A stretch of DNA of 64,000 nucleotides from Actinacidiphila alni (GCF_900112845.1 NZ_FONG01000011.1:62001-126000); one strand, 5' to 3'; shown: positions 30,596 through 48,578, counted from the stretch's first letter. Notes: generated by a model not told the origin, from the letters alone. Numbers and translations are program-made.

Positions 30596-31669
30596 TCAGG
30601 TGTGCAGCCAGCAGCGGACCCAGTGGCCGGATCCGGCGTCCGCCGCTTCCGGCATCCGCTCGGCGCAGATCGCCTGCGCGTGCGGGCAGCGGGCGCGGAA
30701 CGGACAGCCGGCCTCCGTACCGCCGTCGGCGCCCGTGGCGGATCCGGCGGCGGAATCGGGGTCGTCGTCCGCGTCCGGTCCGCCGGCCGCGGCGGCGAGC
30801 GAGGCCGCCGCGGTCCCGGTCCCGGCCTCGCCGGACAGCAGCCGGTCGGGGTCGGGCGAGGCGGCCAGCAGCAGTTGGGTGTAGGGGTGCTTGGCGTTCT
30901 GGGTGACCGCCTCGGCCGGGCCGCCCTCGACGAGGTGCCCGCTGAACATCACCACGACCTCGTCGGCCACGTGCCGGGCGCTGGCGATGTCGTGGGTGAT
31001 GTACAGCATCGACAGGCCGTCGCGGTCGCGCAGTTCGGTGAGGAGGTTGAGGATGTCGAGCCGGATCGAGACGTCCAGCATCGACACCGGTTCGTCGCCG
31101 AGCAGTACGGAGGGGTCGGCGGCCAGTGCCCGGGCGACGGCGGCGCGCTGCCGCTGCCCGCCGGACAGTTCGTGCGGGTACTTGTCGATGAATTCGCGGC
31201 CCGGGGTGAGATTGACCCGCTCCAGCAGCTCGATGATCCGCGCCTCCAGTTCGGCCGCGCCGGGCGTGCCGAAATTCCGCAGCGGCCGGGACAGGATGTA
31301 GCGCAGGCGGTGCAGCCGGTTCAGTGACGCGAACGGGTCCTGCATGATCATCTGCACATGGCCGTAGTGCCGGCGCCGGTCGCGTCTGCGCTCGGCGTTG
31401 ACCGGCCGGCCGTCGAACCGGATCTCACCGGAGGTCGGCCGGTCGCCGAGGGCCAGCAGCCGGGCGAGTGTGCTCTTGCCGGAACCGCTCTGCCCGACCA
31501 GCGCGAGGATCTGCCCGCGCCGCAGGGCCAGGTCCACTCCGTCGACGGCCCGGACCACCTGGCCGTGGCGCCGACCGTGCATCGGGATGTGCCGGGTGAG
31601 GCCGACGGCTTCGAGGATCGGCGGAGCCGTGTCCGGCGCCTTGTACGTGTCGTTGGCCGTCGCTGTCAT
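30596..31669 (-). CDS. ABC transporter ATP-binding protein (DppF/OppF type)
   Basis: A 357-aa ATPase: Walker A GQSGSGKST, signature LSGGQRQR, Walker B VLLGDEPVSMLD and the H-loop YITHD. The C-terminal oligopeptide/dipeptide-transporter domain carries a CPFRARCPHAQAIC cysteine cluster, preceded by a disordered Ala/Asp/Gly stretch. ATG 31669 overlaps the upstream ATPase stop (ATGA). It energises import by the permease pair encoded upstream. Confidence 0.92.
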   Translation of the reverse strand: MTATANDTYKAPDTAPPILEAVGLTRHIPMHGRRHGQVVRAVDGVDLALRRGQILALVGQSGSGKSTLARLLALGDRPTSGEIRFDGRPVNAERRRDRRRHYGHVQMIMQDPFASLNRLHRLRYILSRPLRNFGTPGAAELEARIIELLERVNLTPGREFIDKYPHELSGGQRQRAAVARALAADPSVLLGDEPVSMLDVSIRLDILNLLTELRDRDGLSMLYITHDIASARHVADEVVVMFSGHLVEGGPAEAVTQNAKHPYTQLLLAASPDPDRLLSGEAGTGTAAASLAAAAGGPDADDDPDSAAGSATGADGGTEAGCPFRARCPHAQAICAERMPEAADAGSGHWVRCWLHT

Positions 31670-32658
31670 GACTGCTCCTGTGTGGCGGGCCCGGTCAGCA
31701 GGCAGGCGGTGCCGTGCCCGCCGACGGTGAGCAGGGGCGGCCGTACGGTGTCGCATCCGTCGGTACGGCGCGGGCAGCGCGGGTGGAAGGCGCAGCCCTT
31801 GGGCAGGTCCCACAGATCGGGCGCCGAGCCGCCGATGGCGCGCACCGTACGCGGGCGGCCGTGCAGGCTCGGCGAGGAGTCGCGCAGCCCGAGGGTGTAG
31901 GGGTGCAGCGGGTCGCGGTAGATGGTGGCCGCGGCCCCCGTCTCGACCACCCGGCCCGCGTACATGATCATGATCCGGTCGGCCAGTTCGACGAGCAGCG
32001 ACAGGTCATGGGTGATGAAGACGATCGCGAAGCCGAACTGTGCCTGCAACTCCTGGAGCCGGCCGAGGATCTGACGCTGCATCACCACGTCGACCGCGGT
32101 CGTCGGCTCGTCCATCACGATGATCTCGGGGTCGCAGGCCAGCGCGAGCGCGATGGCCGCGCGCTGCCGCATCCCGCCGGAGAACTCGTGCGGGTAGTTG
32201 CGCGCCCGGTCGCCCGGGATGCCGACCATCTCCAGCAGTTCGGCGGCGCGCTGCCACGCCTCCTTGCGGCCGATCCGCCGGTGGGCGCGGAGCACGTCGA
32301 CGAATTGCGCGCCGACCCGCATCACCGGGTTGAGGGCGGTCATGGCGCTCTGGAAGACCACGGCGAGCCGGTCCCAGCGCAGCTCCCGCAGTTGCCGGTT
32401 GGGCGCGCCGAGCAGGTCCACCGGTTCGCCGTCGCGCGGGTGGTAGCGGACCGAGCCCGCCACGATCCTGGCCGGCGGGCGCTCCAGCCGGGTGACCGCG
32501 GTCATCAGGGTCGACTTGCCGCTGCCGCTCTCCCCCGCGACGCCGAGGATCTCGCCGCGGTGCAGCCGGAAGCTGATGTCGTCGACCGCGCGGGACGGCC
32601 GGTCGGTGCCGTATTCGACCGTGAGGCCGGCCACGTCGAGTATCGGATCCGCGGTCAT
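31666..32658 (-). CDS. ABC transporter ATP-binding protein (DppD/OppD type)
   Basis: A 330-aa ATPase with Walker A GESGSGKST, signature FSGGMRQR, Walker B IIVMDEPTTAVD and H-loop FITHD. Its C-terminal oligo-ABC domain has GCAFHPRCPRRTDGCD cysteines. ATG 32658 overlaps the permease stop by 4 bases, and its own stop overlaps the next start by 4 bases. It forms the heterodimeric motor with the following ATPase. Confidence 0.92.
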   Translation of the reverse strand: MTADPILDVAGLTVEYGTDRPSRAVDDISFRLHRGEILGVAGESGSGKSTLMTAVTRLERPPARIVAGSVRYHPRDGEPVDLLGAPNRQLRELRWDRLAVVFQSAMTALNPVMRVGAQFVDVLRAHRRIGRKEAWQRAAELLEMVGIPGDRARNYPHEFSGGMRQRAAIALALACDPEIIVMDEPTTAVDVVMQRQILGRLQELQAQFGFAIVFITHDLSLLVELADRIMIMYAGRVVETGAAATIYRDPLHPYTLGLRDSSPSLHGRPRTVRAIGGSAPDLWDLPKGCAFHPRCPRRTDGCDTVRPPLLTVGGHGTACLLTGPATQEQS

Positions 32659-33584
32659 CGGGCGCCCTCCGGGGTGACGCCGCCGGAGCGGCGGGAGCGG
32701 CCTGCGGCGGACCCGGGTTTCCGGGTGCGCAGCCGGGGGTCGGCGAGTTCGTCCACGCCGAAGTTGATGAGTCCGGCGGCCGTGCCGACCAGGGCGATGC
32801 ACAGGCCGGGCGGCAGGAACCACCACCAGGCGCCGCTCTGCAACGCGCCCTGCGACTGCACCCAGTAGAGCATCGTGCCCCAGCTGACGGTGCTGGCGTG
32901 GCCCGCGCCGATGAAGTCGAGTCCGGCCTCCGCGGCGATCGAGCCGACGACGGAGAACAGGAACGTCGAGGCGATGACCGGCGCGAGGTGCGGGATGACC
33001 TCGAGCAGCAGGATCCGGGTACGGGACTCGCCGGAGTAGTTGGCCGCCTCGACGAAGTCCCGGTTACGCAGCGACAGGGTCTGGGCGCGTTTGGCCCGGG
33101 CTCCGCCGGCCCAGCTGGTCAGGCCGATGATCACGGCGACGGTCAGCCAGCCGCCCCGGCCGCGGGTGTAGCTGGCGACCAGGATCAGCAGCGGCAGGCC
33201 GGGGATGACCAGGAAGATGTTGACGAAGGCGGTCAGGGCGGCGCCGGACCGTCCGGTGGTGTAGCCGCTGAGCACACCGAGCAGCACGGCCAGGGCCGTG
33301 GCGATGGCGCCGCCGATCAGGCCGACCAGCAGCGAGGTCCGGGTGCCGGCCACCAGTTGGGCGAAGACGTCCTGCCCGAAGGAGGTGGTGCCGAGCCAGT
33401 GCCTGCCCGACGGCGACTCCAGATTGCCGCCGGCGTGCAGCCGGTTGGCCGACTGGCCCAGCACATGGCCGACGAAGAGCTGCCCGAAGGCGGCGACCAG
33501 GACGAGCAGCAGGAAGACGGCCAGTCCGACACGGACCTTGCGGTTGGCCGGGACACGGAAGCGGACGTGGTGTCGACGGGTCAT
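32655..33584 (-). CDS. ABC transporter permease (DppC type)
   Basis: A 309-aa inner-membrane protein. The first transmembrane helix is VGLAVFLLLVLVAAFGQLFVG, and the conserved GTTSFGQDVFAQLVAGTRTSL marks DppC-type permeases. The EAA-type loop (EAANYSGESRTRILLLEVIP) contacts the ATPase. Six membrane segments are expected. It overlaps the downstream ATPase gene by 4 bases and starts after the DppB-type permease gene. Confidence 0.92.
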   Translation of the reverse strand: MTRRHHVRFRVPANRKVRVGLAVFLLLVLVAAFGQLFVGHVLGQSANRLHAGGNLESPSGRHWLGTTSFGQDVFAQLVAGTRTSLLVGLIGGAIATALAVLLGVLSGYTTGRSGAALTAFVNIFLVIPGLPLLILVASYTRGRGGWLTVAVIIGLTSWAGGARAKRAQTLSLRNRDFVEAANYSGESRTRILLLEVIPHLAPVIASTFLFSVVGSIAAEAGLDFIGAGHASTVSWGTMLYWVQSQGALQSGAWWWFLPPGLCIALVGTAAGLINFGVDELADPRLRTRKPGSAAGRSRRSGGVTPEGAR

Positions 33585-34651
33585 GACGCCGCCTCACGGG
33601 TGCGGGGATCGAGCAGGACGTACAGGCAGTCCATGACGAAGTTGGCCACCAGGACCGTCATGGAGATCACCAGGAACAGCGCCTGCATCAGGGGGTAGTC
33701 GAGGTTGAGGATGGCCTGGTTGAGCAGGCTGCCGAGTCCGGGGTAGTTGAAGACCATCTCGGTGAGCAGCGAGCCGCCGACGACCAGGCCGATGGAGACC
33801 GCGAAGCTGCTGACGCTCGGCAGCACCGCGTTGCGCGCGGCGTACGCGGTGGTCACCCGGGTCTCCGACAGGCCCTTGGCGCGGGCGAGCAGCACGTAGT
33901 CCTCGTTGACGACGGAGGCCATCATGTTGCGCATGTGGATCAGCCAGCCGCTGATCGAGGTGAGCACGATGGTGGCGGCGGGCAGCAGCGCGTGGGTGAC
34001 CGCGCTGGAGATGAACCGCGGGTCGAAGCCGGGGGCGAGGTCGGGCCTGGCGCCGCCGGACAGCGGGAACCAGTCGAGCCGGAAGGCGAAGACGTACACC
34101 AGGATCAGCGCGGCCCAGAAGTACGGCAGCGAGTGCACGAAGATCGACAGCGGGCTGATGACGGTGTCGAGCCAGCCGCCCGGCCGGCGGCCGGCCAGTG
34201 CGCCCAGGACGGTGCCGAGGACGAACGCGATCACCGTCGAGACGCCGAGCAGCAGCACCGACCACAGGAAGCCGGAGCGCACCACGGTGGAGACCGGGGT
34301 GGGGTAGAAGGCGAGCGACAGACCGAAGTCGCCGTGGAACAGGCCGCCGAGGTAGGAGAAGTACTGCCGCCACAGCGGCTCGCTGTGGGCGCCGCCGAAC
34401 AGCCGGTGCACCAACTGCACCCGGTCGGGGGTGACGGGCCCGAGTTCGGACATCTTCAGCAGGATCGCGGAGGCCGGGTCGCCCGGCATCAGGCGCGGCA
34501 GCAGGAAGTTCAGCGTCGCCGCCGCCCACGCCGCGACCAGGTAGAACGCGATCCGCTTCAGCAGCACGCTGCCCCAGATCCGCCGGACCGCGCTGCGGGA
34601 GGTCCGGCGGACGGCGGCCGGTGCCTTGGACACCGCCGGCGACAGGGTCAC
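33581..34651 (-). CDS. ABC transporter permease (DppB type)
   Basis: A 356-aa permease: the first helix is RIAFYLVAAWAAATLNFLLP, followed by RLMPGDPA, then the DppB-type ISGWLIHMRNMMASVVNEDY and VLLARAKGLSETRV coupling loop. Start GTG 34651 (VTLSPAVSKAP) is preferred; GTG 34660 is possible. Both lie just after the TAG of the binding-protein gene. The 906-residue open frame to 36301 is an artefact of reading on through the upstream gene in another frame. The stop overlaps the DppC-type start. Confidence 0.9.
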   Translation of the reverse strand: MTLSPAVSKAPAAVRRTSRSAVRRIWGSVLLKRIAFYLVAAWAAATLNFLLPRLMPGDPASAILLKMSELGPVTPDRVQLVHRLFGGAHSEPLWRQYFSYLGGLFHGDFGLSLAFYPTPVSTVVRSGFLWSVLLLGVSTVIAFVLGTVLGALAGRRPGGWLDTVISPLSIFVHSLPYFWAALILVYVFAFRLDWFPLSGGARPDLAPGFDPRFISSAVTHALLPAATIVLTSISGWLIHMRNMMASVVNEDYVLLARAKGLSETRVTTAYAARNAVLPSVSSFAVSIGLVVGGSLLTEMVFNYPGLGSLLNQAILNLDYPLMQALFLVISMTVLVANFVMDCLYVLLDPRTREAAS

Positions 34652-34662
34652 GCCGCCCACGC

Positions 34663-36282
34663 CTAGCCCTTGGTCGCGGGTCGCAGCGACAGGAACAGCT
34701 TCTCGGCGTACACACCGCTCACCGCACCGGGGTCGGGCGTGGTGTACGGGTTCTTCTCGGTGGGCCAGCCGGTGTACCGCGTCGTGGAGTACATATACGG
34801 CGTGCCCTTGACGACGACCGGGATGGTCGGCACCTGGTCGGTCATGATCTTCTCCAGGCCCTTGGTGGCCTCGGTCTGGCCGGCCGGGTCCGCCTTGGCG
34901 AGCTTGTCCAGCGCGGCCTTGGTGGCGGGGTCGTCCCAGCCGATGATGCTCTGCGTGCTGTCCGGCGAGAGCATGCTCCAGTAGAAGTTGTAGAGGTTGG
35001 AGCCGAAGACGTAGGCGTCGCCGAAGACCGCGTCGAAATTGTGCTTGCCCTCGTCGGCGACGTACGCGCTGGGCGCCTCGCCCGGCACGGTCGCCTTGAT
35101 ACCGAGCTGCGACAGCTGTCCGGCCAGTTCCTGGGCGTAGGCCATGCCGTCGGCGAAGGTGCTGACGGTGAGGATCTCCAGGGAGAGCTGCTTGCCCTTG
35201 GCGTCGACCAGGCGTCCGCCCTTGAGCTGGTAGCCGGCCTGGGCCATCTCCTTGAGCGCGGCCTGCCGGTCCTGCGCGAGGGGTTCCTTGGCACCGTCGG
35301 GGATGACCTGGCCCCAGCTCTGCGCGGTCAGGCCGGTCGGGCCGACCGCCTGGTAGACGCCGGGGTTGTAGGCGTCGGCGACCTTCTCGCGGTCGAGCGC
35401 GAGCGCGATGCCCTTGCGCACGTGCACGTTGTCGAACGGCGCGCGCCGCAGATTGAGCAGCAGCGGCTTCATGCTCGCGCGGATCGGCCACAGGTGATTG
35501 TGGGCGGTGTCCTTGTCGAGGTACTGGGACTTGATGTTGGGGATGCCTGCGTAGGAGAGGTCCACCTCGTGCCGGACCATCTGCTGCGCGAGCAGATTGG
35601 TGCTGCTGGTGGTGACGTAGTTGATCTGCTTGACCGGGACGTCCTGCCGCCAGTAGTCCTTGCGGGCGGTGAAGCTCACCTGCTGGCCGGTGACGCGGCC
35701 CAGCGCGTACGGGCCGCTGCCGACCGGGCTGCGGTTGATGTACGTGTCGGGGTCCTGCTTCGCCCACAGCTTGCGCGGGACGATCGCGACCCGGCCGATC
35801 TGCTGGATCTGGGAGTAGGCGGGGCTGGCGAAGGTCAGGGTGACGCCGCCGCCCTCGGGGACGACCGTGGTCAGCGGCACGGCCAGCAGCTTGTGCTGCT
35901 TCATGTACTCGAAGGTGAACACCACGTCGTCCCGGCTTAGCGCGGTGCCGTCGGACCACTTCGCGCGGTTGTCGAGTTCCAGGTGCAGCGCCTTGCCGCC
36001 GGCGTCCCAGGTGTACTTGGTCGCCAGGCCCGGCATGAACTGGTTCTTGTCGGCGGTGTTGAAGTCGAAGAGCTGCTCGTAGATCAGGCCCACCGTGCCG
36101 CGCAGCGCGTTGGGTGAGAACGGGTTGAAGTTCGCCTGCAACGTGGGCTGGGAGTACGCGGCGACGGTGAGCACCGAGGAAGCGGAGCTCGCTTCCTCGC
36201 CGGATGTACAGGCCGCCGTACCCGCGCCCAGCACCGCCATGGCGGAGATGACCGACGCGACGGTTCGCGATCTGGCAGACAC
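34663..36282 (-). CDS. ABC transporter substrate-binding lipoprotein (SBP_bac_5 family)
   Basis: A 539-aa lipoprotein. The signal sequence ends in the lipobox LGAGTAAC (Cys about 25). The family-5 binding fold shows LIYEQLFDFNTADKNQFMPG, KWSDGTALSRDDVVFTFEYM and RSPVGSGPYAL. This family binds peptides, but also oligosaccharides in several bacteria. GTG 36282 follows GAGGAGG. It is the first gene of a five-gene importer operon, with a promoter containing a LacI-type operator, and is next to amino-sugar and uronate genes; an oligosaccharide ligand is inferred. Confidence 0.9.
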   Translation of the reverse strand: MSARSRTVASVISAMAVLGAGTAACTSGEEASSASSVLTVAAYSQPTLQANFNPFSPNALRGTVGLIYEQLFDFNTADKNQFMPGLATKYTWDAGGKALHLELDNRAKWSDGTALSRDDVVFTFEYMKQHKLLAVPLTTVVPEGGGVTLTFASPAYSQIQQIGRVAIVPRKLWAKQDPDTYINRSPVGSGPYALGRVTGQQVSFTARKDYWRQDVPVKQINYVTTSSTNLLAQQMVRHEVDLSYAGIPNIKSQYLDKDTAHNHLWPIRASMKPLLLNLRRAPFDNVHVRKGIALALDREKVADAYNPGVYQAVGPTGLTAQSWGQVIPDGAKEPLAQDRQAALKEMAQAGYQLKGGRLVDAKGKQLSLEILTVSTFADGMAYAQELAGQLSQLGIKATVPGEAPSAYVADEGKHNFDAVFGDAYVFGSNLYNFYWSMLSPDSTQSIIGWDDPATKAALDKLAKADPAGQTEATKGLEKIMTDQVPTIPVVVKGTPYMYSTTRYTGWPTEKNPYTTPDPGAVSGVYAEKLFLSLRPATKG

Positions 36283-36353: not shown

Positions 36354-36382
36354 ATGCTGCCAACGATTGCTGCAACTGTCAA
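36354..36382 (-). promoter_or_regulatory. Promoter of the ABC importer operon with an embedded LacI operator
   Basis: On the minus strand, -35 TTGACA (36377-36382), a 17-base spacer and -10 CAGCAT (36354-36359) form a good promoter. The spacer holds the operator-like GCCAACGATTGC (36359-36370), one of five related sites in the cluster. A bound repressor here would block RNA polymerase directly. Confidence 0.7.
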
Positions 36383-36425
36383 TGCAATGTGCAGCAACGA
36401 TGGCCAGACCTGAGGCGGCGGCGCA

Positions 36426-36445
36426 GCAAACGATTGCGGTACACT
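36426..36445 (+). promoter_or_regulatory. LacI-type operator and -10 of the lacI-family gene
   Basis: GCAAACGATTGC (36426-36437), the best-conserved operator core, lies immediately 5' of a -10-like TACACT (36440-36445), about 45 bases before the regulator's start codon. No good -35 is visible. The arrangement suggests autoregulation. Confidence 0.65.
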
Positions 36446-36490: not shown

Positions 36491-37486
36491 ATGACCGTGA
36501 CCCTCGCGGACGTCGCGGACGCCTGCAATCTGTCGGCCTCGACGGTGTCGCGCGCACTGTCCGACCCCGGCAAGGTCAATGCCGCGACCCGCAGCCGGAT
36601 CGAGCGGGTGGCCCGCGAGATGGGCTATGTGCCGAACCGGGTGGCCCGGTCCCTGGTCTCCGGGCGCACCGACACCATCGGCCTGATCGTGCCCGACATC
36701 GCCAACCCGTTCTTCCCGCCGGTCATCAAGGCCGTCCAGGCACGCGCCCGGGACAAGGGGTACACGGTGCTGCTGGCCGACACCGACGAGCACGCCGCCG
36801 ACGAGCTGGACCGCGCGCGCAGCCTCGGCAAGCAGGCCGACGGGCTGATCCTCGCCTCGCCCCGCACCTCGATCGAGACGCTGCGCCGGCTCGGCGGGAA
36901 CGGCACGGTGGTCTTCGCCAACCGGGACGTCGAGGGCGCCCCCAGCGTCGTGATCGACGAGGCCGAGGGCATGTCGCAGGCCGTCGAACACCTGGTCAGG
37001 CTCGGCCACCGGCGGATCTGCTACCTGTCGGGCCCCAAGCGCTCGTGGTCGAACAAGCAGCGGCACGAGGCGGTCGTGGCGGCGAGCGCCGCCTTCGGCG
37101 CCGAGCTGCTGGAACTCGGCCCGTTCGAGCCGCAGATCCAGGCCGGGATGCGCGCCGCCGACGTCCTGCAGTCCGCGGGCGCGACCGCCGCGATCGCCTA
37201 CGACGACCTGATCGCGCTCGGTGTCATGGCCCGGCTCACCGAGCAGGGCATGCAGATCGGCCGCGAGGTGAGCGTCATCGGCATCGACGACAGCCCGATG
37301 TCGCAGGCCGCCTACCCGATGCTGACCTCGATCCACGTCCCCGGGGTGGAGCTGGGCACCACCGCGGTGGACCTGCTGCTCGCCCGCATCCAGGACGACG
37401 CGGACGCGCCCGAGACCGACGGCGGGGCGATCCGGCTGGAGACCCGGCTGGTCATCCGCGGCTCGACGGGCCTGCCCGTCACCTGA
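36491..37486 (+). CDS. LacI-family transcriptional regulator of the polysaccharide cluster
   Basis: A 331-aa repressor. The HTH (VTLADVADACNLSASTVSRA) and hinge helix (PNRVARSLVSGRT) are followed by a periplasmic-binding-protein-like sensor domain (TIGLIVPDIANPFFPPVIKA ... SVIGIDDSPMSQAAYPMLTS). ATG 36491 follows GGAGGGG. It is divergent from the ABC importer operon. Operator-like sites beside its own start and at 40.3 and 43.6 kb suggest it controls the whole 30.6-44.9 kb set. Its effector is probably a sugar released from the polymer; identity unknown. Confidence 0.92.
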   Translation: MTVTLADVADACNLSASTVSRALSDPGKVNAATRSRIERVAREMGYVPNRVARSLVSGRTDTIGLIVPDIANPFFPPVIKAVQARARDKGYTVLLADTDEHAADELDRARSLGKQADGLILASPRTSIETLRRLGGNGTVVFANRDVEGAPSVVIDEAEGMSQAVEHLVRLGHRRICYLSGPKRSWSNKQRHEAVVAASAAFGAELLELGPFEPQIQAGMRAADVLQSAGATAAIAYDDLIALGVMARLTEQGMQIGREVSVIGIDDSPMSQAAYPMLTSIHVPGVELGTTAVDLLLARIQDDADAPETDGGAIRLETRLVIRGSTGLPVT

Positions 37487-37583: not shown

Positions 37584-38879
37584 TCAGTGAGTGGGTGTCA
37601 GCACCAGACCGGTGTTCGGCGGCACCGTCGTCCGGCCCGAGTACGTCACGCCGTGCAGGTCCGTCCAGGTGCCCGGCAGGATCAGCTGCCGCGACGCGGT
37701 GCTCGACGGGTTCACCACCGTCATGCCGTGCTGGTAGGAGCGCAGCCACAGGCCCGTGCCGTGCCCGATCGGCCCGGTGACCGGCCTGCCGAGGTCGACG
37801 TCCAGCTCGGGGATGTCGTTGTACTGGGCGTAGTCCTTGAGCCCGGTCATCACCATCATCGTCGGCCGCTCGCGGTAGAGCAGGTAGTTCGCCACCACCC
37901 ACTGCCGCTGCTCGGGCGACGCCTGGTCCCAGGTGTCGGTGGGCAGCTTGTTGTCGATCACCATCGGCTTGCAGCGGAACTCGCGGATCAGGTCGTACAT
38001 CATGGACCACTCGTCGTCGGTGACGTTCTCCGGACGGTGGACGGTGAAGCCCTGTTCGTTGAGCCAGATGTCGGACGTGGCGATCGCCTTGCGCGTCGCG
38101 TTCAGCCACGCCTCGGTCTTGTCCTGGCTGAAGTCGTGCAGGCTGGCGTTGAAGGTGATGTTGAAGGCGCCCGCGGCGCCGCGCGCGTGCAGCCCGCCTG
38201 ACAGGTAGGACAGCCAGTCGTTGACGTAGTCGAAGAACGTCGCGTCGTCCGGGTCGTCGCTGAACTGCTGCACCCAGTTGCCGTCGGCGTCGTAGTGCCC
38301 GCTCATCTTGAAGTCGTTGCGCAGGCCGATGTTGTCCACCGCGATCACCTTGTACCCGGCGGCGATCGCGGGCTCGATGATGGTGGTGAAGTACCACTGC
38401 CGCACTTCGGGGTTGGCGACGTCCAGCGGGGTGTACACCTGGTTGCCGAACTCCCAGGCGGGGGTGGTGCGGTCGGCGGTGTACTCGATCCACGTCGGGT
38501 GGTTCGTGCGGAACCAGTCGTAGGTGTACGTGCGCAGCGGCGCGTTGCGGAACGCGGTCATGTAGTAGCTGCCGACCACGCCCTGCGGCTGCTGCGGGCT
38601 GAGCGATCCCCAGACGTAGTACACATGCCCGGCGTACACCGAGGGGTCGGTGACACCGCGGTCGAAGATCTGGGCCTGCGACACCCCGTGGTCGGGCGTC
38701 TGCGGGAGGGTCAGGCCACTGTTCGACGGCGGACAGGCGGCCGACGTCGTCCGCGCGACGGACGACGCGGCGGTGGACGCGGCGGCGGCCGGGGCGGCCG
38801 ACGCGGTCTGGGACACGCCCGCGCCCGCCGCCGTGACAAGACCGGCGATGACGGTCGCGAGTACGCGTATGCGTTTCAC
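37584..38879 (-). CDS. Secreted TIM-barrel putative glycoside hydrolase, Sec-type paralogue
   Basis: A 431-aa protein with a Sec signal (RIRVLATVIAGLVTAAGAG...ASA). It has a putative glycosidase architecture resembling the 'hypothetical glycosyl hydrolase' (GHL15-like) families. Strand-end acidic residues are in YKVIAVDNIGL and SDIWLNEQGFTVHRPENVTD. NHPTWIEYTADRTTPAWEFG and LDVANPEVRQWYF are shared with the adjacent paralogue. A C-terminal beta domain follows (VVNPSSTASRQLILPGTWTD). The exact CAZy family is not assigned with confidence. It follows the paralogue gene by 66 bases and is probably co-transcribed. Polymer cleavage outside the cell is inferred from secretion and context. Confidence 0.72.
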   Translation of the reverse strand: MKRIRVLATVIAGLVTAAGAGVSQTASAAPAAAASTAASSVARTTSAACPPSNSGLTLPQTPDHGVSQAQIFDRGVTDPSVYAGHVYYVWGSLSPQQPQGVVGSYYMTAFRNAPLRTYTYDWFRTNHPTWIEYTADRTTPAWEFGNQVYTPLDVANPEVRQWYFTTIIEPAIAAGYKVIAVDNIGLRNDFKMSGHYDADGNWVQQFSDDPDDATFFDYVNDWLSYLSGGLHARGAAGAFNITFNASLHDFSQDKTEAWLNATRKAIATSDIWLNEQGFTVHRPENVTDDEWSMMYDLIREFRCKPMVIDNKLPTDTWDQASPEQRQWVVANYLLYRERPTMMVMTGLKDYAQYNDIPELDVDLGRPVTGPIGHGTGLWLRSYQHGMTVVNPSSTASRQLILPGTWTDLHGVTYSGRTTVPPNTGLVLTPTH

Positions 38880-38945
38880 TCTTGCTCCTTTTCGGGTGGT
38901 GCGCCGTGTGGTGGTGCGTTCTTCGGGGGGCCGGGTGGCCGGGGG

Positions 38946-40199
38946 TCAGGCGGTCGGGCCGGCCAGGACGGTGCCGGAGTTGGGCGGCAGCGCGATCTGC
39001 CCGGTGTGGGCGGTGCCGCGCAGGTCGGTCCAGGTGCCGGCCGGCAGCGCGGTGGTGGTCGTCTGCGTGGACGAGGGGTTCACCAGCGCGAGGCCGCCGG
39101 TGTAGGCGCGCGCCCGGGCGCCGCCGGTGTCGGTGTACGGCGCGGCGGACGGCGCCCCGATGTCGGTGTGCAGCTCCGGCCGGTCGAGGAAGACGTGATA
39201 CTGCTGGTCCCCGCAGAGCGCGAGCATGCTCCGCTGCTCGCGGCAGAGCAGGTAGTTGGCGATCACCCAGTCGATCTGGGCGGTGCTCGCGTCGGCCAGG
39301 TCGTCGGTCGCGGTCTGGTTGATGGACACGTACGGGGTGGTCGGCGCGATCTGCCGGACGAGGTCGAATCTGTCCTGCCACGCCTGGTCGTTGTAGTTCG
39401 CCACCCGGTGCGCGGTGAAGCCCTGCTCGTCGACGTAGACATCGACCAGGCCGATCGCCGCGAGCATGTCGGCGGGCTTGACCGACGCGTTCCAGGTGAT
39501 GTTGGCGGCGATGCCGGCGCCCGCCGCGTGCAGCCGGCCGGCCAGGTAGTCCAGCCAGTCCAGGACCGCGGCGGCCCAGTCGTCGTCCACCCGCTCCCCG
39601 CTGAACTGCTGGACCCAGGTGCCGGCGGAGTCGAAGTGCCCGCAGTTGCCGTAGCCGTTGAAGGTGACGACATTGTCGAAGCCGACGAAGGGATAGCCGG
39701 CGTCGAGCAGCGGCTGGACGTAGGTGTCGTAGTAGTAGGTGCGGACGGCCGGATTGGTGAAGTCGATCGGCAGGTAGACGGTGTTGCCGAATTCGTAGGC
39801 CGGGGTGGTCCGGTCGGAGGTGTAGACCAGCCAGTCGGGGTGGTTGGCCTGGAACCAGGCCAGGTCGTGGGTGCGGTCGTAGTCGCGGAAGGCCGGCAGA
39901 TAGCCGCACGGGACGGCGCCGGCCGGCTGGGCGAGGCTGCTCGCGCCCCAGACGAAGTAGGTGAGCCCCGCGTAGACGGAGCGGTCCGGAATCTGGTTGT
40001 CGAAGATCTGCGCCCGGGCGATCCCGGAGTCCGGCGGGTCCGGGAGCACCGGTCCCGCGGTCACCGCCGCCGGCGTCGCCGCGGCAGCGCCGGGCAGGTC
40101 GGCGGTGGTCGCGAGGGCGGCCGCCACGAGCGTCGAGCCGGCCAGGAACACCCTGCGGGTGACGCCCCGTCCGGGTCCGGCACTGCGTTCATCACTCAT
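38946..40199 (-). CDS. Secreted TIM-barrel putative glycoside hydrolase, Tat-type paralogue
   Basis: A 417-aa protein. The N-terminus has a twin-arginine signal (TRRVFLAGSTLVAAALA). The body parallels the neighbouring Sec-exported paralogue: NHPDWLVYTSDRTTPAYEFG, IDFTNPAVRTYYYDTY, YPFVGFDNVVTFNGYGN, ITWNASVKPADMLAA and VDVYVDEQGFTAHRVANYND, with the same C-terminal LVNPSSTQTTTTALPAGTWT. The Asp of the FDN motif and the Glu of DEQGFT, conserved in both, are candidate catalytic residues. ATG 40199 gives the proper Tat start; longer frames are shadows. It is first gene of the pair under the operator-containing promoter at 40299-40328. Confidence 0.72.
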   Translation of the reverse strand: MSDERSAGPGRGVTRRVFLAGSTLVAAALATTADLPGAAAATPAAVTAGPVLPDPPDSGIARAQIFDNQIPDRSVYAGLTYFVWGASSLAQPAGAVPCGYLPAFRDYDRTHDLAWFQANHPDWLVYTSDRTTPAYEFGNTVYLPIDFTNPAVRTYYYDTYVQPLLDAGYPFVGFDNVVTFNGYGNCGHFDSAGTWVQQFSGERVDDDWAAAVLDWLDYLAGRLHAAGAGIAANITWNASVKPADMLAAIGLVDVYVDEQGFTAHRVANYNDQAWQDRFDLVRQIAPTTPYVSINQTATDDLADASTAQIDWVIANYLLCREQRSMLALCGDQQYHVFLDRPELHTDIGAPSAAPYTDTGGARARAYTGGLALVNPSSTQTTTTALPAGTWTDLRGTAHTGQIALPPNSGTVLAGPTA

Positions 40200-40298
40200 C
40201 CTGTGCCCCTTCGGGAAGTTCTGCACACGCTTGCCGAGTTGCCTTGAGCTGTTACGCGATATCGGCCGGCAGCGATGCTGCCGTGCTGATGCGACCGC

Positions 40299-40348
40299 AA
40301 GGTAAAACACTGCAAACGATTGTTGCAATAGGCGCACGAAGCTAAGCT
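40299..40348. promoter_or_regulatory. Divergent promoters sharing one LacI-type operator
   Basis: The operator TGCAAACGATTG (40311-40322, extended to TTGCAA at 40328) lies in two overlapping promoters. On the minus strand, -35 TTGCAA (40323-40328) and -10 TACCTT (40299-40304) are 18 bases apart and serve the hydrolase pair. On the plus strand, -35 TTGTTG (40320-40325) and -10 TAAGCT (40343-40348) are 17 bases apart and serve the SGNH gene. The latter would start transcription at or next to the GTG at 40356, giving a leaderless mRNA. Confidence 0.7.
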
Positions 40349-40355
40349 GCTCGGC

Positions 40356-41195
40356 GTGACGGCACACGAGACTTCCCCTCCCCGCCCATCCGACGGCAGT
40401 ACGGCGGCCCCGGCCGCCGCGCTGTCCGGCCTCCTCGCCGCGGACCGGCCACTCACCTGGGTGATCGCCGGCGACAGTGTCGCGCAGGGCGCGCGCTGGA
40501 CCGCGGGTGAACGCGACTACGCCCAGCACCTGGAGGAACGCGTCCGCTACGAACTCGCCCGGTACGCCGACGCGTTCACCCGCACCGCGGTCAGCGGCTG
40601 GCGCACCGGCGACGTCGCCGGCACCCTCGACCGGGTCACCCGGCCCGAGCCCGACATCGTCTCGCTGGGCATCGGGCTCAACGACACCAAGCTCGGCCCC
40701 GCGCATCTCGCGGACTTCGACCGGGGCCTGCGGGATGTCGTCGCACGGCTGCGGTCGGCCGGCGCGCTGGTCCTGCTCCATCTGCCCAATCCCGTACGCC
40801 CGCAGGCGCCGCCGGAGCTGATCGGGCCGCTGCCGGAGTACGTGGCGGCCATGCGCGCGGTGGGCCGGGACACCGGTTGTGTGGTGGTGGACCACTACAC
40901 GCCGTGGACCGGCGCCGGTGACGGCTGGGCGCCCGCCGCCTGGATGGGCGACCCGATCCACCCCAACGGCCGGGGCCACAAGGTGATGGCGGGCACGCTG
41001 CTGCGGACCCTGGGCCTGTGGGACGACGCGAGCGAGTGCTGCGCGCTCACCGTCGCGGCCGGGCTGCCCGACGGTCCGGGCGGTCCCGACAGCCCCGGCG
41101 GATCCGATGGTCCCGGCGATGCCGGCGGGTCCGATGGTCCCGGCGATTCCGGCGGCCCGTCCGCCGCGGAGGGCTCCGGCGCCCCCACGGCCTGA
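40356..41195 (+). CDS. SGNH/GDSL-type hydrolase (probable carbohydrate esterase)
   Basis: A 279-aa protein without a signal peptide. The catalytic blocks of the SGNH superfamily are clear: block I VIAGDSVAQG (Ser), block III GIGLND (Asn) and block V DPIHPNGRGHKVMA (Asp and His). The last 45 residues are a repetitive Gly/Pro/Ser/Asp tail (PDGPGGPDSPGGSDGPGDAG...), coded by imperfect DNA repeats near 41086-41160. It could remove acetyl or other acyl groups from imported oligosaccharides. GTG 40356 has no Shine-Dalgarno and is probably leaderless. It is followed by an oxidoreductase gene on the same strand. Confidence 0.83.
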   Translation: MTAHETSPPRPSDGSTAAPAAALSGLLAADRPLTWVIAGDSVAQGARWTAGERDYAQHLEERVRYELARYADAFTRTAVSGWRTGDVAGTLDRVTRPEPDIVSLGIGLNDTKLGPAHLADFDRGLRDVVARLRSAGALVLLHLPNPVRPQAPPELIGPLPEYVAAMRAVGRDTGCVVVDHYTPWTGAGDGWAPAAWMGDPIHPNGRGHKVMAGTLLRTLGLWDDASECCALTVAAGLPDGPGGPDSPGGSDGPGDAGGSDGPGDSGGPSAAEGSGAPTA

Positions 41196-41245: not shown

Positions 41246-42601
41246 ATGTCCACAAAGCGCTATGCGGTATGCGGTCTGTCTAACCGCGGCCTGGCGGCGT
41301 TCGTCCATCCGCTGATGGGGCTGACCGGCGGGCGCGCGGACGGCGTCCTCGGCTACGGCGGTGTCAGCGACGACCTGTCCGGCTCCGCGCAGGTGGTGGC
41401 GCTGGTCGACAGCGACCCGCGGCGGCTCGACGGGTTCAACGCCCAACTGCGGGCCGCCGGGGCGGCCGAACTGCCCCGCTACTCCCCCGACGCCTTCGAC
41501 CGGATGATCGACGAGGCGGCGCCCGACGCCGTCATCGTCACCTCGCCCGACAGCACGCACGAGGCGTACATCGTCGCCGCCCTCGCCCGCGGCGTCGAGG
41601 TCATCACCGAGAAGCCGATGGTGAGTTCGGCGGCGGCGGCCCGGTCGGTGCTCGCCGCGGAACGCGACAGCGCCGCCGGGGTACGGGTCACGCACAATCT
41701 GCGGTACGCCCGTACGCACCGCGAGATCAAGCGGATGATCCTCGGCGGCGCGATCGGCGCCGTGACCCGGGTGACGCTGGACTACCACGTGGACGTCCGC
41801 CACGGCGCGAGCTACTTCACCCGCTGGAACCGGCAGCGCGCCCACGGCGGCCTGGCCGTGCACAAGTGCTGCCACCACTTCGACCTGGTGACCTGGCTGG
41901 TGGGCCAGGAGCCCGTGGAGATCTTCGGCTACGGCGCGCTGAACTACTACGGGCCGCGCAGCCCGCACCGCCCGCGCGTACCGGCGGGACCCGACGGCGG
42001 GGGCGGCGCGGACGCGTCGGCCGGGCCGCCGACGGCCGATCCGTATCTGCCCGGGCTGCGTGCGACCGGTGTCGTCGCCGACGGTGCCGGCGGGCAGGCG
42101 CGCACCGGCCTGTTCGGCCTGCCGTACGCCGAGCAGTATCCGGCCGACCGCCCGATGTACATCTACGACGACGCGATCGACATCGAGGACACCTACAGCG
42201 CGGTGGTGGCGTACGCGGGCGGCGCGAGTCTCGGGTATTCGATCGACTTCTCCAGCACGTGGGAGGGGTACCGGCTCGGGATCAGCGGCACGCACGGCTC
42301 GATCGAGATGCTGCACGGCCGCGGGCTCGACGGCGAGCCGCTGCCCGGCAGCGACACGATCGCGCTGGCACCGCTGTTCGGGGAACGGTCGACCGTGCAC
42401 GTGGACGCGCCGAGCGGTGAGCACGCCGGGGCCGACCCGGAGATGCGCCGCGATCTGTTCGTCGGACAGAGCGCGGAATCACGGGAGTTGGGGCTTGCCG
42501 CGAGCAGCCTGGAAGGCGCCTGGGCGGTGGCGCTCGGCGAGGGGCTGTGGCGCTCGTGCGTGGAGCACCGGCCGTTCACGGTCGCGGAACTGCTCGGCTG
42601 A
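41246..42601 (+). CDS. Gfo/Idh/MocA-family oxidoreductase
   Basis: A 451-aa NAD(P)-dependent sugar oxidoreductase. The Rossmann domain shows AVCGLSNRGL, VVALVDSDPRR and the hallmark VITEKPMVSS. The substrate domain has LDYHVDVRHGASYFTRWNRQ and LAVHKCCHHFDLVTWLVGQE, and an extra Gly/Ala/Pro insert near residues 245-275. ATG 41246 follows GGAAAGGAA. Some members cleave glycosides by an oxidation-elimination mechanism; whether this one does is unknown. The SGNH gene upstream is probably in the same transcript. Confidence 0.87.
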   Translation: MSTKRYAVCGLSNRGLAAFVHPLMGLTGGRADGVLGYGGVSDDLSGSAQVVALVDSDPRRLDGFNAQLRAAGAAELPRYSPDAFDRMIDEAAPDAVIVTSPDSTHEAYIVAALARGVEVITEKPMVSSAAAARSVLAAERDSAAGVRVTHNLRYARTHREIKRMILGGAIGAVTRVTLDYHVDVRHGASYFTRWNRQRAHGGLAVHKCCHHFDLVTWLVGQEPVEIFGYGALNYYGPRSPHRPRVPAGPDGGGGADASAGPPTADPYLPGLRATGVVADGAGGQARTGLFGLPYAEQYPADRPMYIYDDAIDIEDTYSAVVAYAGGASLGYSIDFSSTWEGYRLGISGTHGSIEMLHGRGLDGEPLPGSDTIALAPLFGERSTVHVDAPSGEHAGADPEMRRDLFVGQSAESRELGLAASSLEGAWAVALGEGLWRSCVEHRPFTVAELLG

Positions 42602-42762: not shown

Positions 42763-43569
42763 TCACGCGCCGTCCCCGGCGGCGGCCAGCTCCCGGATGA
42801 CCTCGGCCGACTCGGCGGCCGACTCCGCGTCGAGGAACAGCCGGGCGTGCGGGGTACGGCGCAGGATCGTCGACGGCCAGTCCGTCGTCGGCTCCAGCGT
42901 CAGGGTGCTGCGCACGGCCTGCGCCTTGCGCGCCTCAGGCGTCACCACCTGCACGCTGCCCGCCGCGAGCAGCGCCGGGATGGTCAGCGATATCGCGGTG
43001 ACCGGCACCGAGGCGCGGTCGGGGAAGTGGCCCTCGCCGACCTGCTGGTCGATCGAGCGCTGGGTCAGCCGGATGACCCGCACCCACCGCGGGTCGGCGA
43101 AGTCCGCCTCGCCCGGCTCGTTGAACGCCAGATGGCCGTTCTCGCCGATGCCCATGCAGGTGAGGTCGATCGGTGCCGCGCGGAGCAGCGCCTCGTAGCG
43201 CGCGCACTCGGCCTCGATGTCCTCGGCGGTGCCGTCGATGTACTCCACGGCGGCCGGGCCGAACGGTTCGGCGACCCGCTCGCGTATCCATTTGCGGAAC
43301 GAGGCCGAGTGCCCGTCACCGACGCCGATGTATTCGTCCATGTGGAACACCGTGATCTTGCTCCACGGGATGTCCTGGCCGGGCAGCGCGGCGACGAAGG
43401 CGAGCTGGGAGTTGCCCGTCGCCATGATCACGCGGGCCGAACCGCGCTGGTCGACCGCCTGCCGCAGCACCTCGGCGGTGTGCTGCGCGGCGGCTTCCGC
43501 CATCTCGGCGGTGGTCGGGTGAATCGCCACCGGCAGGCTGCCGGCGCGGACGAGTCGGGCCGTGGTCAA
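42763..43569 (-). CDS. nagB: Glucosamine-6-phosphate deaminase (NagB)
   Basis: A 268-aa enzyme of usual length that converts GlcN-6-P to fructose-6-P and ammonia. Family motifs: VIMATGNSQLAFVAAL (phosphate loop), ITVFHMDEYIGV (catalytic Asp), and LTCMGIGENGHLAFNEPGEA with the catalytic His. It is divergent from nagA over a region with two operator-like sites. Separation from the usual DasR-controlled nag genes and the presence of LacI-type sites suggest a dedicated copy for this cluster. Confidence 0.93.
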   Translation of the reverse strand: MTTARLVRAGSLPVAIHPTTAEMAEAAAQHTAEVLRQAVDQRGSARVIMATGNSQLAFVAALPGQDIPWSKITVFHMDEYIGVGDGHSASFRKWIRERVAEPFGPAAVEYIDGTAEDIEAECARYEALLRAAPIDLTCMGIGENGHLAFNEPGEADFADPRWVRVIRLTQRSIDQQVGEGHFPDRASVPVTAISLTIPALLAAGSVQVVTPEARKAQAVRSTLTLEPTTDWPSTILRRTPHARLFLDAESAAESAEVIRELAAAGDGA

Positions 43570-43605: not shown

Positions 43606-43634
43606 AGGTTAGCAATCGCTTGCAGCAATGTCAC
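43606..43634 (-). promoter_or_regulatory. nagB promoter with embedded LacI-type operator
   Basis: Minus-strand -35 GTGACA (43629-43634), a 17-base spacer and -10 TAACCT (43606-43611). The spacer contains the operator-like GCAATCGCTTGC (43612-43623). This is the same geometry as the ABC importer promoter. Confidence 0.68.
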
Positions 43635-43780: not shown

Positions 43781-44947
43781 ATGACGGAGACGCTCGAAGG
43801 CTTCAGCGCGGAGGGCCGACCGATCCGGGTGCGGTTCTCCCCCGCGGGCATCGAGGAGATCGGCGAGATCGACCACGCCCCGGACCTGCTGCTGGTCCCC
43901 GGGCTGATCGACGTCCAGCTCAACGGCTACGGCGGGGTGGACGTCAACGCGACCGACGGGGACCGGGCGCTGCCCGACCTGCTGCCGCTGCTGTGGGCGC
44001 ACGGGGTGACGACCTTCTACCCGACGGTGGTCTCCGCCGCCGCGGACCGCACCGCGGAGCTGGTCGCGCGGATCGCGCACGCGCGGGCCACCGACGAGGA
44101 CTTCGCCGGCGCCGTCCCCGGCATCCACCTGGAGGGGCCGTATCTGTCCGGGCTGGACGGCTATCGCGGGGCCCACGACCCGGCGATCCTGCGGGACCCG
44201 GACACCGCCGAGTTCGACCGCTGGCAGCGGGCGGCGGGCGGTCTGATCAGAATCGTCACGCTGGCCCCGGAACGCGCCGGAGCGGCGGACTTCACCCGGC
44301 ACCTGACGGCGCACGGGGTGACGGCCGCCATCGGCCACTCGGCCGCCGGCGCGGCCGACGTGGCGGCCTTCCGCCGGGCCGGCGGACGCTTCTCGACCCA
44401 CCTCGGCAACGGGATCCCGGCGTCCCTCGACCGGCACGACAACGTGCTGTGGCCACAGTTGGCGGAGCCCGGCCTCGCGGCGACCCTCATCGCCGACGGG
44501 CACCACCTGCCGCTCCCGGTGTTCACCGCGCTGCTGCGCGCCAAGGGCCTGGAACGCGCGGTGCTCGTCAGCGACGCCGTGACCGTCGCCGGGTGCCCGC
44601 CGGGCGACTACCGGACCCCGGTCGGCGGAGACGTCACGGTCGAGGCAGGCGGCCGGGTGTCGCTGCGCGGGACGGCGTATCTGGCGGGCAGCGGCGCCTC
44701 GTTGGCCGAGTGCGTGCGGTGGGCCTGCGCGACGGCCGGGCTGCCGGCCGCCGACGCCTTCGCGATGGCCACCCGGCACCCGGCGGATCTGCTCGGCCTC
44801 ACCGACCGCGGCCGGCTGGCCGTCGGCGCGCGCGCCGACCTGGTGCGGTTCGAACGGGACGCCGCCGGCCGGCCGGGCGCGGTCCGCACCACGGTGGCCG
44901 GCGGCGTCGTACGCTTCAGCGCGGACGCGGACCCGGTTCGAGCGTGA
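43781..44947 (+). CDS. nagA: N-acetylglucosamine-6-phosphate deacetylase (NagA)
   Basis: A 388-aa amidohydrolase that deacetylates GlcNAc-6-P (or GalNAc-6-P in related enzymes) before NagB. Landmarks: LLVPGLIDVQLNGYGGVDVN, GIHLEGPYLS (metal Glu), AAIGHSAA (His), STHLGNGIP (His) and LVSDAVTVAG (catalytic Asp). ATG 43781 with GAGGA is preferred; the frame extends to 43628, but that would run through the promoter and operator. Divergent from nagB. Confidence 0.93.
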   Translation: MTETLEGFSAEGRPIRVRFSPAGIEEIGEIDHAPDLLLVPGLIDVQLNGYGGVDVNATDGDRALPDLLPLLWAHGVTTFYPTVVSAAADRTAELVARIAHARATDEDFAGAVPGIHLEGPYLSGLDGYRGAHDPAILRDPDTAEFDRWQRAAGGLIRIVTLAPERAGAADFTRHLTAHGVTAAIGHSAAGAADVAAFRRAGGRFSTHLGNGIPASLDRHDNVLWPQLAEPGLAATLIADGHHLPLPVFTALLRAKGLERAVLVSDAVTVAGCPPGDYRTPVGGDVTVEAGGRVSLRGTAYLAGSGASLAECVRWACATAGLPAADAFAMATRHPADLLGLTDRGRLAVGARADLVRFERDAAGRPGAVRTTVAGGVVRFSADADPVRA

Positions 44948-46472: not shown

Positions 46473-48578
46473 GTGCGCCCACTCATGTCCTCCCGGCCTC
46501 CCCGGAGCCGGCCCCTACCCGGGCGCCGCCGCCTGATGGCCGCCGCCTCGACCGTCGCGCTGCTCGGCGCCCTGCTGATCGGCGGCGCGTCCGCGCGGGC
46601 GGACGACCCGCCCGCCGGCGCGGCCGACGCCGACGTGACCGTCAACACCGCCCAGGGCCTGGGCACGATCCCCGACACGGCGTACGGCCTCAACAGCGCC
46701 GTGTGGGACGCGCAGATGAACGCGCCCCAGGTGCGGGACCTGCTCAACGCCGCGAACCTCGGCATGCTGCGCTATCCCGGCGGGTCCTACGGCGACATCT
46801 ACCACTGGCGGACGAATTCGGCGCCCGGCGGATACGTCGCGCCCGGCACGGACTTCGACGCCTTCATGGGCACGGTGCGCTCGATCGGCGCGCAGCCGAT
46901 GCTCATCGCGAACTACGGCTCCGGCACCCCGCAGGAGGCCGCGGACTGGGTGCGCTACGCCAACATCACCCAGGGGTACGGCGCGAAGTTCTGGGAGGTG
47001 GGCAACGAGCTGTACGGCAACGGGCATTACGGCTCCGGCTGGGAGCACGACGACCACCCCGACACCTCCCCCACCGCCTACGCCGACGGGGTGCTCCAGT
47101 ACGCCGCCGCGATGAAGGCCGTCGATCCGACCGTCAAGGTCGGCGCGGTGCTCACCATGCCGGGCAACTGGCCGGACGGGGTGCTCGGCGACGGCGAGGC
47201 CGCGGACTGGAACCACACGGTGATCCCGCTGATCGCGGGCAAGGCCGACTTCGTGATCGTGCACTGGTACCCGACCAGCTCCGACACCGCACACCTGCTG
47301 AACACCCCGTCCCAACTGACCGGCGAACTTGCCCAGTTGCGCGACGAGCTGGCCGCGGCGGGCGCGCCGGACACCCCGATCGCGCTGACCGAGGTCAACG
47401 GCGGCCGGGACGTGAACACCCAGCCCAACGCCCTGTTCGGCGCGGACGCCTGGTTCACGGCGTTGCAGAGCGGGGTGTTCACGGTCGACTGGTGGGACAC
47501 CCACAACGGCGCCCAGCAGATCTCCACCTCCCCCGACGGCGCCACCGACTTCAACGACTGGGGCGTGCTCTCCAGCGGGGACTGCGTCGGCGCGGTGTGC
47601 GAGCCGCCGCTGAACACGCCCTTCCCGGCGTACTACGCGATCAGGATGCTCAGCCAAGTGGGCCGTCCCGGCGACACGATGGTCGGTTCGGGCAGCAGCA
47701 GCGCGACGGTCGCAGCCCACGCGGTGCGCCGCGCGAACGGCGATCTGAGCGTGCTGCTGATCAACAAGGACCCCGCCGCCGCGCACAGCGTGGATCTGCG
47801 CTTCGCCGGTTTCACGCCGGACACCGCGGCGCCGGTGACGGTGGCGACCTACCGCGACGGCGCCACCGGCATCGACACCGCCACCGCGGCGTACGGCGCG
47901 CGGCAGACCCTGCCCCCGTACTCGCTGACCACGGTGACCGTGCACCCCAAGGCCGGTACCGCGTCGGCCCTTTCGGCGCCCGGGGCGCCGAAGGTGATCG
48001 CGGCGGGGGCCACGGGCGCGACGGTGAGCTGGACCCCGTCGACCGGCGGCACGGTCACCCGCTACGAGGTCTACCGGCAGCTCGGCACGACCAGTGAGCT
48101 GCTCGCGGACAGCACGGGCGGCTCCGTCACCGTCCGCAATCTCACCCCGGGGACCACCTCCACCTGGAACGTGCTGGCCCGGGACGCCGACGGCCGGCTG
48201 TCCGCGCCCTCGGCACCCGTCACCGTACGCACCGGCACGCCCGCGGACTCCACCTGCCGGGTCGCGTACCGGACCACGGCCGGCTGGGGCAACGGCTTCA
48301 ACGCCGAGGTGACGGTCACCAACACCGGTCCGACGCCGATCACCGGCTGGACGCTGGCCTTCGACTTCCCCGGGGCGGGTGAGTCCGTCACCGGTTTCTG
48401 GAACGCCACGGTCCGCGCGGACGGCCGGCATGTCGTGGCCACCCCGGTGGACTGGAACGCCACGCTGGCCGCCGACGGCGGCAATGCGGCGTCCTTCGGC
48501 TTCACCGGCGCCAATGACGGCGCGGCTCCCCCGCCGACCGTCTTCACCCTCAACGGCACGGTCTGCACGACGACATGA
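46473..48578 (+). CDS. Secreted clan GH-A glycoside hydrolase with FN3 and CBM2
   Basis: A 701-aa exported enzyme. A basic N-terminus and hydrophobic core (MAAASTVALLGALLIGGASA) form the signal. The catalytic domain (about 55-490) shows the clan GH-A acid/base in KFWEVGNELYGNG and the nucleophile in PIALTEVNGG. LRYPGGSYGD and FVIVHWYP resemble arabinofuranosidase-like (GH51/GH39-type) barrels. An FN3 module (about 500-590) and a C-terminal CBM2 (about 600-701, CRVAYRTTAGWGNGFNAEV) follow. GTG 46473 has GAAGGTGAG upstream. The CebR operator ties it to cellulose or hemicellulose use. The exact family is unresolved. Confidence 0.85.
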   Translation: MRPLMSSRPPRSRPLPGRRRLMAAASTVALLGALLIGGASARADDPPAGAADADVTVNTAQGLGTIPDTAYGLNSAVWDAQMNAPQVRDLLNAANLGMLRYPGGSYGDIYHWRTNSAPGGYVAPGTDFDAFMGTVRSIGAQPMLIANYGSGTPQEAADWVRYANITQGYGAKFWEVGNELYGNGHYGSGWEHDDHPDTSPTAYADGVLQYAAAMKAVDPTVKVGAVLTMPGNWPDGVLGDGEAADWNHTVIPLIAGKADFVIVHWYPTSSDTAHLLNTPSQLTGELAQLRDELAAAGAPDTPIALTEVNGGRDVNTQPNALFGADAWFTALQSGVFTVDWWDTHNGAQQISTSPDGATDFNDWGVLSSGDCVGAVCEPPLNTPFPAYYAIRMLSQVGRPGDTMVGSGSSSATVAAHAVRRANGDLSVLLINKDPAAAHSVDLRFAGFTPDTAAPVTVATYRDGATGIDTATAAYGARQTLPPYSLTTVTVHPKAGTASALSAPGAPKVIAAGATGATVSWTPSTGGTVTRYEVYRQLGTTSELLADSTGGSVTVRNLTPGTTSTWNVLARDADGRLSAPSAPVTVRTGTPADSTCRVAYRTTAGWGNGFNAEVTVTNTGPTPITGWTLAFDFPGAGESVTGFWNATVRADGRHVVATPVDWNATLAADGGNAASFGFTGANDGAAPPPTVFTLNGTVCTTT

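Follow-up and report, generated by a model that had tools for sequence, protein, structure and literature searches.

Two adjacent secreted proteins of Actinacidiphila alni, encoded within the window (the whole 64,000-nucleotide stretch analysed; GCF_900112845.1, NZ_FONG01000011.1:62001-126000), belong to Pfam family GHL15 and probably form a two-enzyme extracellular depolymerase that supplies an amino-sugar oligosaccharide catabolic pathway. According to the proposed mechanism, the specialised pair, probably retaining α-glycosidases, would cut an amino-sugar-containing polysaccharide outside the cell by endo action, and the resulting oligosaccharides would be imported by a co-regulated family-5 binding protein and an Opp-type ABC transporter. 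Inside the cell, an SGNH esterase would trim the sugars, a Gfo/Idh protein would oxidise or cleave them, NagA would deacetylate them and NagB would deaminate them. Three promoters would be repressed by a LacI-family regulator, and repression would be relieved when an oligosaccharide or its derivative binds the regulator; a likely use is that of soil bacteria eating an amino-sugar-containing slime or wall polymer.

The gene of the Sec-exported copy (P0001, 431 aa) occupies 37584..38879 on the minus strand with a GTG start, and that of the Tat-exported copy (P0002, 417 aa) occupies 38946..40199 on the same strand with an ATG start, leaving a gap of 66 bp. The two proteins are 45% identical across 372 aa (BLASTP, E = 1e-101), a likeness far past chance level, and both genes are true coding sequences in host DNA of 72.4% G+C; as a query against the 8.27 Mb host genome, P0001 matches only itself and P0002. 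The preliminary description had reported two adjacent paralogues here (37584-40199) with long shared motifs, and all of these are present: HPTWIEYTADRTTPAWEFG in P0001 corresponds to HPDWLVYTSDRTTPAYEFG in P0002, AVDN at a strand end to GFDN, NEQGFT to DEQGFT, and the C-terminal NPSST..LPGTWTD to NPSST..LPAGTWTD, where the Sec copy departs from that account by missing the A of LPAG. The same account paired a Sec with a Tat export route, and inspection of the N-termini agrees. In particular, P0001 begins with a Sec-type signal (VKRIRVLATVIAGLVTAAGAG..TASA-A), and P0002, a predicted Tat substrate, carries the twin-arginine motif VTRRVFLAG followed by a hydrophobic stretch. By the same inspection, the twin arginines are kept as ITRRSLL in all four Kribbella Tat orthologues, and the Kribbella Sec orthologues have MRLRRMSS-type starts that lack two hydrophobic residues past the arginine pair.

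In a tree of 16 sequences, the Sec and Tat copies form two supported clades, each uniting the window's copy with its four Kribbella counterparts. Orthologues are 60-63% identical, and paralogues across the two clades are 40-42% identical; the copies are therefore old, specialised partners, and not the products of a recent duplication. The clades are separated by 40 clade-fixed differences, some of them beside the candidate catalytic residues (R187/F180 and D189/G182 shortly past the nucleophile position, and N274/D257 adjoining the acid/base position), and the Sec clade has a 10-residue insertion past strand 5. These differences suggest, from the alignment, that the Sec and Tat copies have different subsites and may act as complementary, non-redundant enzymes.

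The pair sits in a cassette of 12 genes with the order oppF-D-C-B, SBP5, lacI, ghl15-Sec, ghl15-Tat, SGNH, Gfo/Idh, nagB and nagA. The importer lies on the minus strand and consists of OppF-like (30596..31813) and OppD-like (31666..32826) ATPases, both assigned by Pfam and Kribbella comparison, an OppC-like permease (32655..33584; Pfam BPD_transp_1, 73-75% identical to Kribbella), an OppB-like permease (33581..34663, start approximate; 71-72% identical to Kribbella), and an SBP_bac_5 binding protein (34663..36282; Pfam, with orthologues of 62-64% identity in three Kribbella loci), whose best PDB sequence relatives include Vibrio chitin-oligosaccharide binding proteins. The LacI-family regulator (36491..37486, plus strand; Pfam LacI/Peripla_BP_3) has an orthologue of 71-72% identity in the same place in four Kribbella loci. 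On the other side of the pair are an SGNH/GDSL hydrolase resembling acetyl-xylan esterases (40356..41195, plus; Pfam Lipase_GDSL_2 and PDB matches, 45-48% identical in Kribbella), which lacks an evident signal peptide, and a Gfo/Idh/MocA oxidoreductase (41246..42601, plus; Pfam, 57-59% identical in Kribbella and 45-46% at locus L064), whose nearest PDB sequence is an aldose-aldose oxidoreductase. A GH109-type NAD-dependent glycosidase is not claimed for this last gene, because its Pfam domains are generic Gfo/Idh domains and its nearest PDB entries are sugar dehydrogenases.

The cassette is completed by a NagB-like glucosamine-6-phosphate deaminase (42763..43569, minus; Pfam Glucosamine_iso, 72-74% identical to Kribbella) and a NagA-like GlcNAc-6-phosphate deacetylase (43781..44947, plus, start inferred, with the longest ORF beginning at 43628; Pfam, 56-61% identical to Kribbella). 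PDB matches of the latter are NagA proteins and it scores 185 bits against TIGR00221 (cut-off 225.65); NagA and NagB both fall under their NCBIfam equivalog cut-offs. The cassette lacks a sugar kinase that could supply NagA and NagB with their 6-phosphate substrates, and no intracellular glycosidase is evident in it. The amino-sugar genetic context pointed out in the preliminary description is consistent with NagA and NagB, with the chito-oligosaccharide-like binding protein and with a conserved regulon. Adjoining the importer, UxuB-like and altronate/galactarate-dehydratase-like genes occupy 27351-30437; these UxaA/UxuB-like genes were considered as members and dropped, as they are absent from the Kribbella cassettes. 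Elsewhere in the window, at 46473-48578, lies a gene for a protein with a CBM2 and an FN3 domain; Pfam matches nothing in its first 500 residues.

The cassette promoters share palindromic operators, which define a predicted LacI regulon that, by motif search, is specific to this locus within the genome. With up to three mismatches allowed, the window holds five sites for the 16-mer CTGCAAACGNTTGCAG, against an expectation of 0.84 matches, and every one of them falls in one of the cassette's three divergent promoter regions; the tool count is 10 because palindromes match both strands. Two putative operators lie on the plus strand in the lacI/sbp promoter region (36357..36372, a 16-mer match, and 36424..36439, an exact GCAAACGATTGC), a weaker site lies in the GHL15-Tat leader (40221..40236, plus; 16-mer match), and the remaining putative operators lie between GHL15-Tat and SGNH (40310..40325, plus; 16-mer match, conserved in Kribbella) and between NagB and NagA (43610..43625, plus; GCAATCGCTTGC). 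Across the 8.27 Mb genome, the 16-mer with up to two mismatches has four matches, all inside the cassette, and the exact GCAAWCGNTTGC is found in two places, again both inside it. With the pattern reversed as a control, the whole genome yielded 4 matches, both strands counted; the raw count is therefore modest, and the weight lies in the clustering within 4 kb at promoters. The motif is also found at the same promoters in Kribbella.

The same gene order was found in five genomes, those of the host and of four Kribbella. The GHL15 pair is present in 1 of the 35 genomes of the host's genus and 4 of the 38 Kribbella genomes, and among 394 genomes of the class only the host itself has a close orthologue of the binding protein. 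Because the cassette is patchy in occurrence, yet retains its order, its distribution suggests lateral transfer. Further, a contig end from a genome in the order of Kribbella (L064) carries the C-terminal part of a GHL15 gene together with genes for NagA, SBP5, an AXE1-like esterase and two Gfo/Idh proteins like that of the cassette (45-46% identical); this separate, rearranged locus supports the tie between GHL15 and these four kinds of protein. One Kribbella locus (L031:12876-13464) has lost the importer save for an oppF remnant and has kept both GHL15 genes and the Nag genes.

The preliminary description could place the pair in no characterised CAZy family, a view that needs correction: P0001 and P0002 score 42.6 and 38.2 bits against Pfam GHL15 (PF14885), both over the gathering cut-off of 27, and their nearest solved relatives are the GH168 fucanases. 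GHL15 is the sole Pfam entry up to E = 1, with no match to GH114 (PF03537). Searches with the two proteins gave no match in NCBIfam, PHROGs or the phage records searched, and a BFVD fold search returned weak generic barrels only. The family was defined as a hypothetical one, hypothetical glycosyl hydrolase family 15 (Naumoff 2011). Literature found on GHL15 names the family without a function, except for GH168 and the PDB label of a GH168 structure, and we know of no activity for any GHL15 protein outside GH168.

Most of the other GHL15 genes seen are part of clusters for exopolysaccharide synthesis, alongside Wzx/Wzz, glycosyltransferases or PelF. At L063:5772-10365 and on plasmid pTC2 of Paenarthrobacter aurescens (L073:5385-9092), a GHL15 gene directly follows or overlaps a PelF glycosyltransferase gene (PelF scores of 202 and 244 bits, respectively; cut-off 100), and on pTC2 galE comes next after GHL15; the GHL15 proteins of both loci lack an obvious signal peptide. 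These loci may be small Pel-like operons with GHL15 in place of the PelA hydrolase. In Caballeronia, some 5 kb separate a distant homologue from pel genes, and in bacilli pel operons are flanked by PelA-hydrolase-like genes and galE (PMC7112168). A further locus, L070, was rejected as a case of GHL15 beside PelF and an Agd3-like deacetylase, since its protein is a GH114 enzyme that cross-matches the GHL15 profile; the cross-match is itself evidence, at the profile level, for an apparent kinship of GH114 and GHL15. At this prokaryotic locus (L070:202-7678), the GH114 gene runs convergently to a cluster that encodes PelF and a CBM87-bearing, Agd3-like deacetylase with domains of the fungal galactosaminogalactan type. 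Elsewhere, a viral contig (L034:4665-6032, IMGVR_UViG_3300031251_000011) encodes a GHL15-like protein, 30% identical to P0001 with both acids kept, among phage virion structural, baseplate-like and tail-fibre genes, which makes it a candidate phage depolymerase, and one Eremiobacterota MAG (L015:9641-12951, L016, L018) has several GHL15-like paralogues of lipoprotein type that conserve both acids.

From the association of GHL15 relatives with PelF, pel genes and galE, an α-linked galactosamine polymer is the leading candidate for the substrate. We tentatively propose a Pel- or galactosaminogalactan-like α-linked amino-sugar polymer, with rather more doubt than confidence, and this is the least certain step of the mechanism; the PelF-linked proteins belong to other GHL15 branches, and the fold fits fucanases too. 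A pure GalNAc substrate is weakened because NagB is nearer to glucosamine-6-phosphate than to galactosamine-6-phosphate enzymes, scoring 117.6 bits against deaminase models of the former and 69.5 bits against isomerase models of the latter. These scores, the match of NagA to GlcNAc-6-phosphate deacetylases and the uronate genes beside the importer would also suit a heteropolymer with α-linked GlcNAc (such as a capsule like heparosan, or a GlcNAc-containing bacterial exopolysaccharide), with the chemistry otherwise the same; however, the Kribbella cassettes lack the uronate genes, GHL15 relatives associate with PelF, and the closest folds that act on α-linked amino sugars are galactosaminidases, so that we hold such a substrate to be somewhat unlikely.

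The TIM-barrel fold assigned in the preliminary description is borne out by AlphaFold (AF2) models of P0001 (pLDDT 78.8, pTM 0.79) and P0002 (pLDDT 84.5, pTM 0.82), each a barrel followed by a C-terminal beta domain. Structure prediction and fold comparison, the check proposed there, ranked GH168-type entries first (Z = 24.6-26.7; about 25-26 for P0001 and 25-27 for P0002), with superpositions that span the full length, C-terminal beta domain included (304-317 residues, rmsd 2.7-3.5). GH191 followed (Z = 17.8-18.5), and then Ega3, GH114 and PelA structures (Z = 15.4-17.0), in all of which the barrel alone is aligned; together these represent the GH191/GH114/GH166 galactosaminidases. Identity in the structural alignments is 10-16% to GH168, and 8-16% over GH168 and GH191. 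In addition, a PDB search with a profile of 10 homologues matched five GH168-type entries, one of them a mutant of another: 9nhf was the best (E = 4.6e-7), followed by 9f9v, 9jos, 8ya6 (Fun168A; E = 0.0023) and 9jp3.

On these grounds the pair could be GH168-type endo-α-1,3-fucanases, or enzymes for another fucose-rich polymer, yet this is improbable: single-sequence phmmer searches of the PDB with P0001 and P0002 found no match and no GH168, the identity is low, the cassette holds NagA and NagB, the binding protein is chito-oligosaccharide-like, and none of the 18 neighbouring window proteins tested belongs to a sulfatase or fucose-catabolism family. The refutation named in the preliminary description, a confident match to a characterised family with a known substrate, thus applies by half: the GH168 fold match stands, but the match is structural, at 10-16% identity, and the gene context is at odds with fucoidan.

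The frequent presence of other GHL15 genes in exopolysaccharide-synthesis clusters raises a different reading, that the pair remodels the cell's own exopolysaccharide or wall, with the fragments recycled through the importer and the Nag genes. Against it, the cassette contains no glycosyltransferase or flippase, it is as patchy as given above in both genera, and its LacI repressor is a dedicated one, as is usual in systems for nutrient uptake; self-remodelling is thus quite unlikely.

The shared Asp and Glu singled out in the preliminary description as candidate catalytic residues prove to be the only acids invariant among 14 diverse sequences (both window copies, Kribbella, strong-scoring GHL15 proteins, Eremiobacterota and the phage contig). 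Six columns do not vary (Y106, D182, E275, G364, R380 and N390), and therefore D182 and E275 are the sole invariant acids; the acidic pair is kept in this broader alignment, strong-scoring GHL15 proteins included. The Glu of the Caballeronia homologue is misaligned in one alignment and aligned in another. In P0002, the counterparts are D175 (predicted nucleophile), inside strand 171-177 of the model, and E258 (predicted acid/base), right past strand 254-257. In the homologue-profile alignment, the residue of 9nhf facing D182 has index 170; provided that the chain bears the usual 21-residue pET tag, this is native Asp167. A retaining mechanism has been inferred for GH168, with Asp167 as the predicted nucleophile (PMC12210190). 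E275 aligns with the corresponding Glu of 9f9v, the GH168 acid/base, indirectly, through a strong-scoring GHL15 protein (L005). An Asp nucleophile and a Glu acid/base also occupy this end of the barrel in GH191, GH114, GH135 and GH166 (PMC12054363). In the proposed mechanism, the strand-4 Asp (D182/D175) would be the nucleophile and the strand-6 Glu (E275/E258) the acid/base. That one or both copies are instead non-hydrolytic, as a binding protein or transglycosylase, is very unlikely: GHL15 function is hypothetical and the Sec model has a low-confidence loop (245-251), but neither acid is missing from either copy or from any of the 10 orthologues.

Having one regulator, an importer and catabolic enzymes together, the cassette offers a direct route to the substrate through the inducer and the binding-protein ligand. 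If the substrate is Pel-like or galactosaminogalactan, both proteins would be new biofilm degraders, and the siting of GHL15 beside PelF would be explained. A broader proposal is doubtful, though possible: that GHL15 is a further Pel/galactosaminan hydrolase family, replacing the PelA hydrolase beside PelF/GalE in some actinomycetes, and that the window cassette is a laterally spread, dedicated system for eating the cationic amino-sugar biofilm polymer of others by means of a differently specific Sec/Tat pair.

Compared with known systems, the pair is most similar in structure to the GH168 endo-1,3-fucanases (Fun168A, 8ya6/8ya7; MeGH168, 9nhf), with which it shares the full-length fold at Z about 25 and the nucleophile position; it differs in its low identity, in lacking a fucan-degradation context and in being accompanied by other sugar-catabolism genes. 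With the GH191/GH114/GH166 endo-α-1,4-galactosaminidases (TM1410/TmGH191, Ega3 and the PelA hydrolase domain), it shares the barrel fold (Z = 15.6-18.5), the GH114 protein that cross-matches the GHL15 profile, and the ability of GHL15 to adjoin PelF and GalE, the place that PelA-hydrolase-like genes and galE take in bacilli; unlike them, it has no Pfam GH114 match and superposes over the barrel only. Within GHL15, both proteins exceed the gathering cut-off, keep the Asp and Glu and place a C-terminal beta domain after the barrel, whereas they score low (38-43 bits), are 13-20% identical to strong-scoring members, carry the extra shared motifs NHPxW and EQGFT, and lie in a catabolic cassette while other members lie in exopolysaccharide clusters. 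Chitin-oligosaccharide uptake systems with family-5 binding proteins resemble the cassette in the family of the binding protein, the type of ABC transporter and the NagA/NagB-type genes downstream; in contrast, the window cassette lacks a chitinase and has the GHL15 pair, the SGNH esterase and the Gfo/Idh protein. The pair is ordinary by family and new in its setting, as a co-regulated and apparently mobile GHL15 pair within a predicted amino-sugar oligosaccharide uptake cassette.
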